Source of the DNA: Cloacibacterium rupense
Lineage (GTDB): Bacteria > Bacteroidota > Bacteroidia > Flavobacteriales > Weeksellaceae
Length of the DNA: 64,000 nucleotides
NCBI RefSeq assembly: GCF_014645495.1
Contig: NZ_BMLV01000002.1
Span: forward strand, 1-64,000
Reading direction: 5' to 3'
Shown: positions 11,407 to 36,958 of the stretch, piece after piece
How positions within the stretch are numbered: position 1 is the first letter of the stretch
Layout: every line of letters begins with the position of its first letter
The notes under the pieces: model-generated
Database searches by the model: none
What the model saw: only the letters and a program-made list of their open reading frames with translations
Told to the model about the DNA's origin: nothing
Program-made: the position numbers and the translations under genes

Positions 11407-12795
11407 TTAAAATCCGTATTGTGTAGAGTGAAAACCTAACTTAATAAGTCCTGCTTTAACATCTGGAGCGTTCATAAATAAATTCCAAAGGAATTGGTTT
11501 TTATGATTTTCGATCATAGGAGCAATAGTTCCTTGGTCAATTGCCAAATATCTAGGAATTACCCAATTATAATGAATAGAATATGCATCATAAGGACCAG
11601 CAACTCCTATATATTTACTGTAGTTTTCGTTGTATAAAAATCTTAAAAAATTCATACTTTCTGTAGGAGTGTAAGGCATGTCTGAAATGGCAGCTGTAGG
11701 AGAAATAATACCTAAATCATTATTGGGCTGATGGGCAGCATAGCCACTAGTTCCGTCTGAGTTTCTACTATAACTAGCAGTAAGTCCCCAGCTTTTAGAA
11801 TTATAACCTTGCCATCCTTTTGGATTTGTCAAACAATATTGGTACATTATTTTAGAGTGATTTACTACTGCATCACCATAATTTACATAATCATCTGTAA
11901 GCCCTCTAGGATCTAAACCTAAGAATGAATAGTGTGACCAAAACATAGGCCCAACCGTTCCGCTAGCTCCGTTATGATTAACCACCAAAGGAATTCCGTA
12001 TTGAGTGCCTGTAGATTTTATTGCGCCACTTCTAGCCCAACCTTGGGTATAAACAGCTTTATCAATAGAATAATTAGGTGAAGCTGCTGCTAAAACATAA
12101 GTGATTAATGTTTCATCAAAACCTCTCAACTGCATATTCATTTGAAAATCATAATTAGGAGACCAATGCCAATACAAAACGTTTTGACCTTGGGTGTACC
12201 AATTCCACTCGATTCCTTTCCAAAGGTCGTCTGCTTTTTTAGATAAAGCCAATTCTGTAGCGTCAGTAGAATTTTTAAAATATTCTCTTACACAAATTAA
12301 ACCTTGTGCTAAAAATGCCGTTTCTACCAAATCACCGCCATTATCTTTGGTACTAAAAGGAATTACCGCACCAGAATTTCCGTCTATCCAATGTGGCCAA
12401 GCCCCGTGGAATCTGTTGGCATTTTGTAAAAAATTAAGAGCGGTTGTAAGTCTAGAAACAGCATCTGCTTTAGCTACATAACCATTTTTAATTCCCACTA
12501 AAATAGTCATCAGTCCGAAACCAGAACCACCTGTGGTGACTACATTTGCATCTTGACTTGTATTATCAGTATGGTATCTTTCTCTGGCCAATTTAGAATT
12601 AGATTGTGCATAATCCCAAAAATATTTCAGAGCATCTTTCTGAGTCATTTCAATAATTTCAGCGTCTGTGTATGTTTTGGGTGGGTCAACTGGAGTAGGA
12701 TTGGGATAAGTCCAATCTCCACTAGAGCGCGAGCAACCTGATAAGATTGAAATTATCGCTAACAGCAATAGTACTTTTAACTTATTATTTATCAT
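11407..12795 (-). CDS. GH144-type glucoamylase-family lipoprotein (copy 2)
   Basis: About 462 residues, starting at ATG 12795 because this gives a clean lipoprotein signal ending LSGC (Cys21); the longer frame begins at a GTG inside a terminator hairpin. It shares every conserved block with copy 1 (DALKYFWDYA, RFHGAW, KDNGGDLVETAFL, YLAIDQGTIAPMIEN), so the pair looks like a tandem duplication that has diverged mainly in the signal region and linkers. GH144 enzymes are inverting glycosidases acting on beta-1,2-glucan. The two copies might divide endo- and exo-type cleavage; that is inference. Confidence 0.88.
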   Translation of the reverse strand: MINNKLKVLLLLAIISILSGCSRSSGDWTYPNPTPVDPPKTYTDAEIIEMTQKDALKYFWDYAQSNSKLARERYHTDNTSQDANVVTTGGSGFGLMTILVGIKNGYVAKADAVSRLTTALNFLQNANRFHGAWPHWIDGNSGAVIPFSTKDNGGDLVETAFLAQGLICVREYFKNSTDATELALSKKADDLWKGIEWNWYTQGQNVLYWHWSPNYDFQMNMQLRGFDETLITYVLAAASPNYSIDKAVYTQGWARSGAIKSTGTQYGIPLVVNHNGASGTVGPMFWSHYSFLGLDPRGLTDDYVNYGDAVVNHSKIMYQYCLTNPKGWQGYNSKSWGLTASYSRNSDGTSGYAAHQPNNDLGIISPTAAISDMPYTPTESMNFLRFLYNENYSKYIGVAGPYDAYSIHYNWVIPRYLAIDQGTIAPMIENHKNQFLWNLFMNAPDVKAGLIKLGFHSTQYGF

Positions 12796-31896: not shown

Positions 31897-32949
31897 ATGA
31901 CTATTTTCAAGAACTATAATCGCAAAATTATATATTGGGTGAGCATTTTGTTTGCCCAATTTTTTTTATTTTACATATTATCAATAACCACTTTGGGAAT
32001 AAGATTAGCCAATACTATTTTTGAACTAAAGAAAAAAAGTCATCAGACAATATTCTCTATCACTAATTTTTCTATAGGAGACATAATTTACAGCTTTATA
32101 TTTTTTTTCCTTCTAATCATAATCTATAAAATCTTTAGAAAAAAATCACGTCATGCATACTTAGTAAAACTTCTAAAAACTATAAACATCCTATATTTTA
32201 TCTATCAAATTTTCTGGGGACTTCTATATTTTCAACCGCCAATAATTGAAAAACTTCCCACAAAAAAAATTTCAGAAGAAACTCTAAGTAAATTAACCCT
32301 AAAATATATACACAAAACCAATATCAGTAGAAATTATGTGCTACAAGACAAAAATGGAGTTTTCTGTATTAAGAATATAGAAGAGACAAAACATAAAATA
32401 CTTGAAAATCAAAAAAAAATTCCAAGAAAATTCTCTGAAAAACAATACACCTTGATTGATAATTTTAAACCCACTCTTTTGGGTAAATATTTCAGTTATA
32501 CAGGTATACTCGGGTATTACAACCCTTTTACATCAGAGGCACAGTATAATCCTCAATTACCCGCAACTTATATCCCATTTACCTTAGCACATGAAAGCGC
32601 ACACCAATTAGGTTTTGCTAGAGAACAAGAAGCTAATTTTATAGCCTACCTTATATGCAAAAATTCAAAAAACCCTGACCTTGAATATAGCGCAAATCTC
32701 TATGTCTTAAAAAGTCTATTAAATGCACAGTTAGAAAAAAATCCCGAATTTGTGGGGCAAGCAAAATTATTTTTATCAGATGCTGTAAAAAGAGATTTAG
32801 AAAACAATAAAATGTTTTATGAAAATCATCAAGGTTGGATCAACAACCTATTTCATGCAACGAATGATTTGTTCTTAAAATCTAACAGACAAGAAGGCAG
32901 TATCACCTATAGTTACTTTATAGAACTGCTTATTAGATATGAAAATTAG
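31897..32949 (+). CDS. DUF3810 family membrane metalloprotease-like protein
   Basis: A 350-residue protein with three N-terminal transmembrane helices (about 12-32, 59-78, 90-112) and a soluble C-terminal part with the zinc-protease motif HESAHQ (PFTLAHESAHQLGFAREQEANFI). A downstream Glu in EQEANF could be the third zinc ligand. DUF3810 proteins are widespread in Bacteroidota without known substrates. It lies six bases after the ROK kinase and is probably in the same transcript. Its reading frame is notably rich in Lys/Asn/Ile. Confidence 0.85.
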   Translation: MTIFKNYNRKIIYWVSILFAQFFLFYILSITTLGIRLANTIFELKKKSHQTIFSITNFSIGDIIYSFIFFFLLIIIYKIFRKKSRHAYLVKLLKTINILYFIYQIFWGLLYFQPPIIEKLPTKKISEETLSKLTLKYIHKTNISRNYVLQDKNGVFCIKNIEETKHKILENQKKIPRKFSEKQYTLIDNFKPTLLGKYFSYTGILGYYNPFTSEAQYNPQLPATYIPFTLAHESAHQLGFAREQEANFIAYLICKNSKNPDLEYSANLYVLKSLLNAQLEKNPEFVGQAKLFLSDAVKRDLENNKMFYENHQGWINNLFHATNDLFLKSNRQEGSITYSYFIELLIRYEN

Positions 32950-32960
32950 CTGTTTTAAAC

Positions 32961-33051
32961 AAAAAAAAGAATCACATCTTTCGATGTGATTCTAAAAACA
33001 CAAATGATGAAAAAAAATTTATTGCCTTAAGAGCAGAACGCTCATTCAAAG
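32961..33051 (-). ncRNA. Candidate small RNA with own promoter and terminator
   Basis: On the minus strand there is a TTTTG -33 box (complement of 33084-33088), a 19-base spacer and a near-consensus -7 box TACTTTTA (33057-33064), then CACCGC, a discriminator like that of the tRNA-Met promoter nearby (CACCACG). The transcript would be about 90 nucleotides. It contains a small GAGC/GCTC hairpin and ends in a strong terminator, an 11-bp stem (32968-32978 with 32983-32993) with a TTTC loop (CTTTCG on the plus strand) and eight T's. An eight-codon frame (ATG at 33045) could encode MSVLLLRQ. No known RNA family recognised. Confidence 0.5.
32968..32993 (-). terminator. Strong minus-strand terminator
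   Basis: An 11-bp perfect stem AGAATCACATC/GATGTGATTCT with a 4-base loop. The T-run of eight is on the minus strand, whereas the plus strand has only A-rich flanks, so it fits the small RNA candidate better than the DUF3810 gene. Confidence 0.75.
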
Positions 33052-33056
33052 CGGTG

Positions 33057-33088
33057 TAAAAGTACATCAATATTATCAATTTACAAAA
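33057..33088 (-). promoter_or_regulatory. Promoter of the candidate small RNA
   Basis: TTTTG, 19 bases, TACTTTTA (one mismatch to TAnnTTTG), read on the minus strand. No protein gene follows within the next 100 bases in that direction. Confidence 0.5.
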
Positions 33089-33212
33089 TATTTTTGCGTT
33101 TTTTTTATCAATATTTTACCAATAAATATCATATAATTAGTTATTCTATTAACAATTAACATATTATATTATAAATAACAATAAAAAATGGGCTAAAATC
33201 ATGCAAATAAAA

Positions 33213-33239
33213 AAAAGACAACAATAATTGTTGTCTTTT
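33213..33239 (-). terminator. Terminator of tRNA-Met
   Basis: A nearly perfect palindrome (33213-33224 with 33228-33239 in register) placed one base after the tRNA 3' end, followed on the minus strand by a run of nine T's. Confidence 0.8.
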
Positions 33240-33240
33240 G

Positions 33241-33314
33241 TAGCGAAGACGGGATTTGAACCCGTGACCTTTGGGTTATGAATCCAACGCTCTAACCACC
33301 TGAGCTACCTCGCC
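33241..33314 (-). tRNA. tRNA-Met (CAT anticodon)
   Basis: A 74-base cloverleaf on the minus strand with D-arm GCTC/GAGC, anticodon loop containing CAT, and T-loop TTCAAAT. No CCA is encoded. The first pair is G-U and the anticodon stem lacks the three G-C pairs of initiators, so it is elongator Met or a lysidine-modified Ile(CAT) tRNA; sequence alone does not separate these fully. Confidence 0.92.
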
Positions 33315-34909: not shown

Positions 34910-36916
34910 TTATTTTATAATTTTAGAGGTTACTTTTTCACCAAGTTCTGAAATAACATTAACAATGTACGCATTGTTTACGTTATCATCAAGTTTGATT
35001 AAATAATCAGAACTAGCGCTTACGTTTTTATCACTAAAAATAAGTCTGCCACTCATATCGTGTACATATATATCTGCTTTTTTCCAATTTGGATCAAATT
35101 TTACGATATATTTCTTCGCGTCTTCTATATATAATATCTTAGTTCTAGAAGGAGTTTTTCCTTCATTAGTCCCCAATGTTCCGTCTGTTTGTGGTTTGCC
35201 ATAATACAAATCATATTCTGTAGAAGTTACAGGAATTGTATTCATCTGTTTAACATCTATCAAGCTACCATTGTTTTTGGCATCTTTGATATAGAATCCT
35301 TCTCCTGAAGATAGCAAATGAGTTCCATCGTTTACCAATTGAGCATTTTCTCGAATTTCAAATTTATATGATTTGATTTTATCACTATAGTTAACTAGTT
35401 TTATATTTTTTCCTTTAAAGTCGTTCTCATTGGCTTCATTGATGTACAACCAATATTTACTAGTTTGGTTATAGTCATATCCTCCGTTCAATGCTTCTTC
35501 ATAAGTTCCTACAATATTATTACTGAAAGCGGTAACTTGTGTATTTGCTTTTGTAGAGTTACCTGTAGTAGCATCAGGATACACAACATAATAAGTTCTA
35601 CCTATTTCATTTCCATCAGCATCTAATGCTATTACACCTAATTGTTTAGTAACAGTTGACGCTTTTTTAGATGAGACTCTTGCAGCAGTTACGCTATAAT
35701 TATTGACTTGCCTTGGATAATATTGAAATCTTCTTAAAGTTTTAAAATCTAAAGTCCTTTGAGCTACTGGAGCGGTTTTGGTGTTATCTTTCATTTTTAT
35801 AACAAAAGTCCCCATTGGCCTAACCATCATATAATCAATATCCCCAGTCGGATTTCCTGCTGTATCAAAAGTTACATACTTATATGAAGTAGAACCTCCA
35901 CCTACATTACTAGTGTATTGAACTCCCGAAACCTCTAACCTAATACCATATATATTAGACAAAAAATTACCGTCGCCAGAAGCTCCTTCGTTAATCGCTA
36001 TTCTAGTTAAATCAAGATTAGTTAAAAAAGGATTCCCGAATTGATATAAATTTTTCCCAAAACCCTTACCATTAGCATCCGCAGAATCCCATGCTACTCC
36101 TCCACTTGCTATATGAAAACCATCTTGTAAATATGAATTATATCTTTCGTTGTATTGATTACGATTATTACCTCCTGTCCCAAAATTAATTGCAGCTCCT
36201 GCATTTTCTAAAATAACATTTGGCACATTCAAATCAGAATAAGGGATACCTTTAACCGTGAAAACTTTAGAACTTGTATCTAAATTTTTAGAACCCAGTA
36301 TATAATAATCTGTACCTGTTGCTGTTTTGTCTGTTACTGGAGTGAAATCAAAAACAACATTGTTGTTATTCCATTTTAGAATTTCGTTCTCTGACCATCT
36401 TGTATTGGTAAATCCTTTACCTAATTCTGCAGAAGAACTTAAAGTAGATAAAGTCTTAAAGAAAAAAGGCATTGCAATCTGTTGGTATGAGCCATGCTTT
36501 ACTGCTCTATACTCTTGGTCTACAAACCCATCAACGTTCAATTGAGTTAAACCACTTATATAAAGTTGGCCATAAGTATAAACGGGGGCATTAGCAGGGT
36601 TTGCAGAATTAATTGATCCATAGTTATTAGGCTCATTAATTTTATTAATAAAATTACCTCCTGCTTCTGATTCAAGTTTAGGATTCCCATTTGCCTTTAG
36701 AGTTCTAAAAACATCACTTGCTCCTCCTACAATCATTACATTTCCACCATTAATAACCTGAGCATTGTCTTTTAGCACTAAACTGCCAGTATTGTACACT
36801 AACGCACCTTTACTTACTGACATCTTTGCATTGACATCCATAAATGTGCCATTAGTCTGGGCTTTTACAAGTATAAGCCCTCCAATTAATGTTAGAGTTA
36901 ATAAATTTTTTTTCAT
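34910..36916 (-). CDS. T9SS type A sorting-domain surface protein
   Basis: A 668-residue secreted protein with signal peptide (LIGGLILVKAQ). The body is a repetitive beta-rich surface protein without a recognised catalytic domain (an N-terminal stretch VSKGALVYNTGSLVLKDNAQ resembles a beta-helix). The last 70 residues are a type A T9SS C-terminal signal, with ADIYVHDMSGRLIFSDKNV and YIVNVISELGEKVTSKIIK. It should be secreted through SprA and anchored or released after signal removal. It has its own promoter (36959-36989). Adhesin-like role possible, unproven. Confidence 0.88.
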   Translation of the reverse strand: MKKNLLTLTLIGGLILVKAQTNGTFMDVNAKMSVSKGALVYNTGSLVLKDNAQVINGGNVMIVGGASDVFRTLKANGNPKLESEAGGNFINKINEPNNYGSINSANPANAPVYTYGQLYISGLTQLNVDGFVDQEYRAVKHGSYQQIAMPFFFKTLSTLSSSAELGKGFTNTRWSENEILKWNNNNVVFDFTPVTDKTATGTDYYILGSKNLDTSSKVFTVKGIPYSDLNVPNVILENAGAAINFGTGGNNRNQYNERYNSYLQDGFHIASGGVAWDSADANGKGFGKNLYQFGNPFLTNLDLTRIAINEGASGDGNFLSNIYGIRLEVSGVQYTSNVGGGSTSYKYVTFDTAGNPTGDIDYMMVRPMGTFVIKMKDNTKTAPVAQRTLDFKTLRRFQYYPRQVNNYSVTAARVSSKKASTVTKQLGVIALDADGNEIGRTYYVVYPDATTGNSTKANTQVTAFSNNIVGTYEEALNGGYDYNQTSKYWLYINEANENDFKGKNIKLVNYSDKIKSYKFEIRENAQLVNDGTHLLSSGEGFYIKDAKNNGSLIDVKQMNTIPVTSTEYDLYYGKPQTDGTLGTNEGKTPSRTKILYIEDAKKYIVKFDPNWKKADIYVHDMSGRLIFSDKNVSASSDYLIKLDDNVNNAYIVNVISELGEKVTSKIIK

Positions 36917-36958
36917 TTCGTTTGTGTTTTGAAAGAAGATAGACTTCTTCTGAACTTA

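Follow-up and report, generated by a model that had tools for sequence, protein, structure and literature searches.

Two described systems come closest to the small RNA reported here. In the FopS/RbpB system of Bacteroides thetaiotaomicron, as set out in the parts of PMC11697453 drawn on here, a multicopy RNA family with one common seed is made from a vegetative promoter in a genome that lacks Hfq and has an RRM-1 protein; base-pairing of the seed is predicted at the start codons of surface-protein mRNAs, and there is a phage-borne copy. Each of these features has its likeness in the RNAs that we call class A, in which a shared core is followed directly by a terminator, the phage-borne copy being represented here by one viral contig. 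Paralogs sharing one seed within a genome, the FopS criterion, were found in Chryseobacterium-type genomes, in genome G012, and in Cloacibacterium relatives. The two systems also differ. The FopS seed is in the 5' part of the RNA, whereas the core of the gene linked to DUF3810 is internal, after a 5' hairpin and about 38 nt from the inferred start; some class A paralogs (L041, L044) may start near the core. FopS is concerned with SusC-like mRNAs; the targets predicted here, from start-codon complementarity, are the VGINT genes (described below) and those of other exported proteins. Finally, class A was found in Weeksellaceae, and it is accompanied by mirror RNAs that carry the complement of the core (class B), of which the parts of PMC11697453 consulted for FopS make no mention. 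Class A may work like FopS, compared by description and without sequence alignment; because the seed position differs and the comparison is one of description only, we do not claim membership in that family. Rfp18 of Flavobacterium psychrophilum, in the portions of PMC9723704 used here, is likewise a conserved flavobacterial small RNA with predicted action on several secreted-protein mRNAs; by description, its predicted pairing region is the third stem-loop, whereas the RNA described here has two hairpins with the core between them.

The minus-strand gene in the window

The window, a stretch of 64,000 nucleotides from Cloacibacterium rupense, carries a compact unit on its minus strand. The promoter reported in the first-pass annotation is present: the −33 element TTTTG (33084–33088), read from the sequence, lies 19 nt ahead of the −7 element TACTTTTA (33057–33064), which is followed by CACCGC, and we take the two elements together to be the Bacteroidota promoter type. 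With its 5' end inferred from this promoter and its 3' end from the terminator, the predicted small RNA is about 90 nt long (32962–33055, minus strand). It begins with a 5' hairpin, GCUUU...AAGGC in the MFE fold (33024–33052, minus strand), continues with the core or seed TTTTTTTTCATCATTTGTGTTTTT (32994–33017, minus strand), which contains the invariant TTTTTTTCATCATTTGTG, and ends in an intrinsic terminator (32961–32993, minus strand) consisting of the previously described 11-bp stem (32993–32968), a 4-base GAAA loop, and a T run to 32961; a terminator scan also found it. The terminator hairpin suits the minus strand only, because on the plus strand it is followed by TAAAAAC. Between CACCGC and this hairpin there are about 60 nt that include a hairpin. 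The fold of the predicted RNA had a z of −3.9, none of 200 shuffles being as low, and covariance model R1 (below) matched 32952–33064 with 111.4 bits, a score to which this copy, itself part of R1, contributed.

The DUF3810 gene lies on the plus strand at 31897–32949 (Pfam PF12725, E 1.7e-78), and a tRNA-Met gene lies on the minus strand at 33314–33240. As stated earlier, the tRNA-Met promoter, TATATTTG followed by CACCACG, is about 270 bases from that of the small RNA. The discriminator that the two were said to have in common is seen in the window, as CACCGC and CACCACG, but the relatives have roughly CAnCG, so that CACCGC is not fixed. A terminator-like hairpin belonging to tRNA-Met is found at 33213–33239 on the minus strand; with a hairpin of this kind ending the tRNA, the small RNA need not be a product of tRNA readthrough.

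Conservation and covariation

A DNA search with 32950–33120 gave matches in 32 of 59 genomes, among them all 7 genomes of the genus and 27 of 36 of the family; the match in G034 and the five in other families were not to the core but lay outside it or at the gene start. Four loci (L027–L030) whose DNA-search matches lacked the core were left out. Alignment A1 and covariance model R1 were made from 24 copies at 23 loci; L015 was omitted for a run of N, and L024 and L026 because they had no −7 element by the pattern used. R1 matched 27 of the 59 genomes, 26 of the 36 Weeksellaceae genomes and 1 of the 23 others, the last marginally (E 0.006); only 3 of the 26 family matches are new finds, since 23 supplied the model, and the R1 search gave no match in 10 of the 36 family genomes. 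The motif of the DUF3810 protein end was found just downstream in 24 of 26 loci by a motif test. Named genomes contained an exact 29-base word of the window copy in at least 120 places, and the 80 matches listed were from Chryseobacterium, Kaistella, Epilithonimonas, Cloacibacterium, Soonwooa, Cruoricaptor, and metagenome bins labelled Weeksellaceae or Flavobacteriia. Among 296 genomes of the phylum, the 21-base core at 0–1 mismatch was present in 7 of 7 family genomes (counting the window's own) and, outside the family, in 1 of 289, at a single site. A distant blastn search for plasmid relatives gave no match.

The promoter and the terminator were retained in these close relatives (24 aligned copies). 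TTG or TTTG stood 19–20 nt ahead of the −7 element in 22 of the 24, and T1, A2, T5, T6, and T7 of the −7 element were invariant in 24 of 24, an invariance that is partly by construction because the copies were picked by the pattern TAnnTTTN. The covariation that the first-pass annotation had proposed looking for was observed in both hairpins. In the outer five pairs of the 5' hairpin, which differs in sequence and length among copies, 81.7% of cells were paired and 3 of 5 pairs had changes on both sides; for the terminator, the values were 98.9% and 9 of 11 pairs. For both helices together, 12 of 16 pairs had changes on both sides, the covariation score was reached by none of 500 shuffles, and pairing fell from 93.5% to 36–55% in slid controls. 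RNAalifold by itself gave the terminator only, and the 5' helix is our reading of single folds. Covariation in the terminator by itself is what any conserved terminator should show; the case for a gene is made by the unit in its entirety. The promoter, the 5' hairpin and the terminator, both of which covary, and the invariant core between them were kept together, in line with the stable stand-alone RNA gene proposed earlier. The sequence evidence supports a stand-alone small RNA gene as the best reading of the interval.

No known RNA family had been recognised in the interval, and this held: at gathering score, Rfam found only the two tRNAs of the window. When E was raised to 10 for 32900–33240 there were sub-threshold matches only, the best being on the tRNA terminator, and in Rfam 15 the matches on the candidate itself fell far short of the gathering scores.

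The core occurs in a multicopy family

The 18-base core TTTTTTTCATCATTTGTG, flanked by T's on both sides, was identical in 24 of 24 aligned copies while the stems changed. The same core was found in intergenic positions before terminators of unrelated sequence. By a rule that required a terminator directly after the core and allowed at most 3 mismatches in 19 bases of core, there were 59 distinct class A copies, 27 from L001–L026 and 32 outside these first 26 loci. Five Chryseobacterium-type genomes had 5–7 exact 21-base cores each; of the 32 sites examined in them, 22 were class A by rule (G150 4/6, G025 1/4, G320 5/6, G265 7/10, G332 5/6) and several others by eye. G012 had six copies within 1 kb (L031), and the Cloacibacterium relatives (L033–L037) had two or three copies in which CATCG replaced CATCA. 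In the window's genome R1 found one copy; a second, at C2:68510 (L088), was recognised by eye and is a CATATG variant with a bulged hairpin. These comparisons go beyond the first-pass annotation and support the view that the RNA belongs to a multicopy family whose core is complementary to start-codon contexts.

Some arrangements of the core are worth recording separately. It occurred twice, 170–280 bases apart, at L171, L178, and L217 (Kaistella) and at L020 (G016). At L031 and L033–L037 the cores are just 3' of small exported peptide genes, several of which have PPR, PPRD, or PPQD ends, and these could possibly be small RNAs derived from 3' UTRs. A viral contig from IMG/VR (IMGVR_UViG_2645727825) has one class A-like core at 11919–11939, followed by a terminator-like hairpin (L272).

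In partition-function folds, which took in about 20 nt beyond the terminator, the mean unpaired probability of the core was 0.62 and the minimum 0.35, with values above 0.7 in 9 of 24 copies; the core is thus predicted to be only moderately free.

Complements of the core at gene starts

The complement of TTTTTTTCATCATTTGTG is AAAAACACAAATGATGAAAAA, an A-rich start-codon context. When 18 family genomes were searched for AACACAAATGATGAAAAA at 0–1 mismatch, 106 distinct sites were found. A rule assigned 46 of them to class A and 15 to class B, placed 14 at gene starts, and left 31 as other; 9 of the 31 other sites and 1 of the 14 gene starts are in fact class A copies of the AAACGATG type, because the rule did not recognise their long hairpins. 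With the pattern reversed, no site was found in any of the family genomes searched. Long complements in mRNAs were few, with two gene starts in the window's genome at 0–1 mismatch of 18. Seventeen gene starts were found at 0–2 mismatches, and 13 of them look exported by eye, a proportion to be read with the knowledge that the pattern ATGATGAAA itself favours signal peptides. In a 464-kb sample of the window's genome, ACACAA occupied positions −6 to −1 in 1 of 352 predicted genes and therefore is not a generic start context; each of the 15 orders of AAAACC was seen 0–2 times in that sample.

A group of exported proteins with VGINT near the end of the signal peptide recurred. The VGINT set came from 39 motif hits in seven genomes, of which 35 were fetched and 4 left out; after 10 rows without an in-frame start and two that were not the protein family (L314, L330) had been dropped, 23 genes in 17 groups were usable. 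ACACAA or AACACA was present between −26 and +13 in 8 of the 17 groups (10 of 23 genes), whereas in the background 7 of 127 exported-type genes and 10 of the 220 others had one of these words (VGINT versus exported-type, p 2.7e-5). The words, like the VGINT class, were picked after the hits had been seen; when the two genes from which the idea arose were removed, the count was 6 of 15 (p 5.5e-4). Exported-type genes overall were not enriched for the motif relative to the other genes (p 0.43). An AACACA test in the 464-kb sample (3 of 5 VGINT versus 6 of 347) was set aside, as the sample was partly chosen by hits (at least 1 of its 20 stretches, G000:C6:160001–180000) and one of the five was a false match.

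In a seed control in which the two G's of the seed were moved, the real placement separated VGINT from exported-type starts best of 66. At each of the 66 placements, however, pairing was stronger for VGINT starts than for those of exported-type genes (p at most 0.01); because every placement separates to some degree, VGINT starts are A-rich anyway, and only the ranking among the 66 speaks for the real seed. Within the window, a possible target site is the 31-base place at 36900–36930 (minus strand, 90% match to the query), where pairing is predicted at the start of a gene for a T9SS-sorted protein (34910–36916, minus strand; TIGR04183 sorting domain at 23.6 bits, where the cut-off is 23). Cofold energies of the window RNA with class B RNAs and with five candidate mRNAs ranged from −13 to −23 kcal/mol, compared to −7 for the DUF3810 start. 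As a simple duplex with an arbitrary control start also reached −21 kcal/mol, interaction energies alone prove little. Judged from sequence, antisense action of class A at start codons is likely.

Stand-alone RNAs carrying the complement

Class B consists of stand-alone RNAs with the complement of the core just before their own terminator. By rule it accounted for 15 of the 106 sites, in 11 of the 18 genomes, and at least seven more were recognised by eye among the other sites (L080, L102, L104, L105, L119, L126, L127); a looser rule gave 17 sites at which the complement is at once followed by a terminator on the same strand. As a control, of 240 ATGA-N(1-2)-AAAA sites in the sample, a terminator followed four, one being class B itself. 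A TAnnTTTG promoter was found by pattern for 5 of 16 class B sites, and by eye for five more (L102, L104, L105, L119, L127). All 11 class B sites with surroundings listed were outside ORFs of 70 aa or more. The frames of the sites found by rule have 3 to 24 codons, run towards or into the terminator, and have little in common after the first codons.

At one locus, followed in four species, AAACACAAATGATGAA did not change although the leader before it had diverged and the terminator loop after it varied; this locus lies between a gene ending in ..NNL or ..NNM and a convergent gene. Loci B2 and B3 say little, because their flanks are conserved too. The window's genome has two class B sites (C1:349391 and C6:176988), and class B was not clear in the five Chryseobacterium-type genomes. 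At L083, L116, L053, and L073, in four species, a conserved word, GAGTAGGTRATGAGTA, stands ahead of the class B leader.

Small RNA sponges and decoys exist in other bacteria. Like them, class B offers a target-like sequence to a regulator RNA; it differs from them in comprising many short genes with a near-identical complement before the terminator, a few of them with about three sites. From their sequence, it is plausible that the class B RNAs are decoys of class A, and this candidate decoy set is the most interesting part of the system.

Proposed mechanism and alternative explanations

We propose, with a probability of about 0.6, that class A RNAs of about 90 nt pair at the start codons of exported-protein mRNAs and block ribosome entry, and that class B RNAs mop them up. 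The small RNA would be made from its housekeeping-type promoter and ended by its own terminator; its core UUUUUUUUCAUCAUUUGUGUUUUU would pair with AAAAACACAAAUGAUGAAAAAAA-like sequence around the start codons of mRNAs, the main targets being some exported-protein mRNAs (VGINT and, singly, T9SS-type and lipoprotein genes). Pairing would mask the start codon, ribosome entry would be blocked, and less exported protein would be made, while class B RNAs would titrate class A. The window's genome gave no match for Hfq and has one RRM-1 protein (G000:C1:705217–705423), which might assist. The sequences show that the gene's anatomy is conserved and its core invariant, that paralogs and class B exist, and that complementary words are in excess near VGINT gene starts; that the RNAs are transcribed, pair inside the cell and repress, that class B acts as a decoy, and that RRM-1 helps are inferences. 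According to the parts of PMC6847099 used here, members of the phylum have no Shine-Dalgarno sequences and use Kozak-like contexts, and for this reason a seed covering the start context would be apt. More tentatively, and here we lean towards doubt, a lock-and-decoy arrangement might extend throughout the Weeksellaceae. Many small RNA paralogs with one seed, the reverse complement of a start codon and its context, would be titrated by mirror RNAs that bear the start-codon sequence itself, in some cases at about three sites, and the two sets would together determine how much exported surface protein is made, without Hfq and without reliance on Shine-Dalgarno pairing.

The hierarchy could be the reverse: the active regulators, or very short mRNAs, would then be the class B RNAs, and class A would silence them as decoys or antidotes. 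Pairing between the two classes is symmetrical, and class B RNAs have a full start context with a frame of 3 to 24 codons that leads towards or into the terminator, so that some may be translated. On the other hand, class A is more widespread (26 of 36 family genomes, compared to 11 of 18 for class B by rule), it is multicopy in genomes in which class B is not clear, and the class B frames share little past their first codons; we consider this reversal improbable. We give about the same small chance to the idea that the core is a binding site for a protein, for example the RRM-1 protein or an RNase, which the RNA would titrate or scaffold, with no antisense seed. The length of the invariant stretch (all 18 bases, in each of the 24 copies) and a genome with one RRM-1 protein but without Hfq would suit such a site, but the occurrence of its reverse complement in separate RNAs and at gene starts would be left unexplained.

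The conserved core might instead be a terminator context only, with no function in trans. Several paralogs follow small ORFs directly and lack an evident promoter, and class A as counted always abuts a terminator, as its rule demands. At the locus described here, however, a conserved promoter precedes the core by about 40 nt and the interval contains no conserved ORF; a terminator needs no invariant 18-base flank, and this flank has a mirror set. We consider this explanation quite unlikely. We attach hardly any weight to a gene for a micro-protein, either MSVLLLRQ on the minus strand or MMKKNLLP on the plus strand. Both frames are open in the window, but the eight-codon MSVLLLRQ, the conservation of which the first-pass annotation had left to be checked, was present in only 1 of 24 aligned copies (10 of the 24 had an ATG near the same place with different peptides, and 11 had none in the part scanned), and the plus-strand frame varied from 6 to 46 codons among the L001–L026 copies.

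The multicopy family was not found in Rfam or in published text, searched mostly by title and with few subscription journals, and a description elsewhere is possible. Under the same coverage, none of the Chryseobacterium and Elizabethkingia papers listed was, by its title, about small RNAs of these bacteria, and among the papers listed by a text search with two words of the core and its complement nothing relevant stood out by title, a Streptococcus mutans small RNA paper being among the results. If the proposed antisense mechanism is right, environmental and clinical bacteria of one family have in common an antisense RNA family directed against start codons, together with a set of decoys that matches it, and small RNAs that share a seed and act at start codons would be a recurring plan in Bacteroidota. 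As class A and class B can both be found by a short word, the regulon would be directly testable.

Loci with several sites

Three loci, L051 (G016:C1:71784), L070 (G008:C1:1474454–1474521), and L135 (G017:C35), had about three sites each, in the form of degenerate AACACAAATGATGAAAA copies before the terminator, some of them in possible hairpin loops. L135 lies just upstream of a VGINT-type gene. At L276 (G000:C3:9693) and L059 (G001:C1:8183), a common word near CGACGAGTTTTGGCG precedes promoter-like blocks; these loci have AACACAAATGATGAA and no clear terminator.
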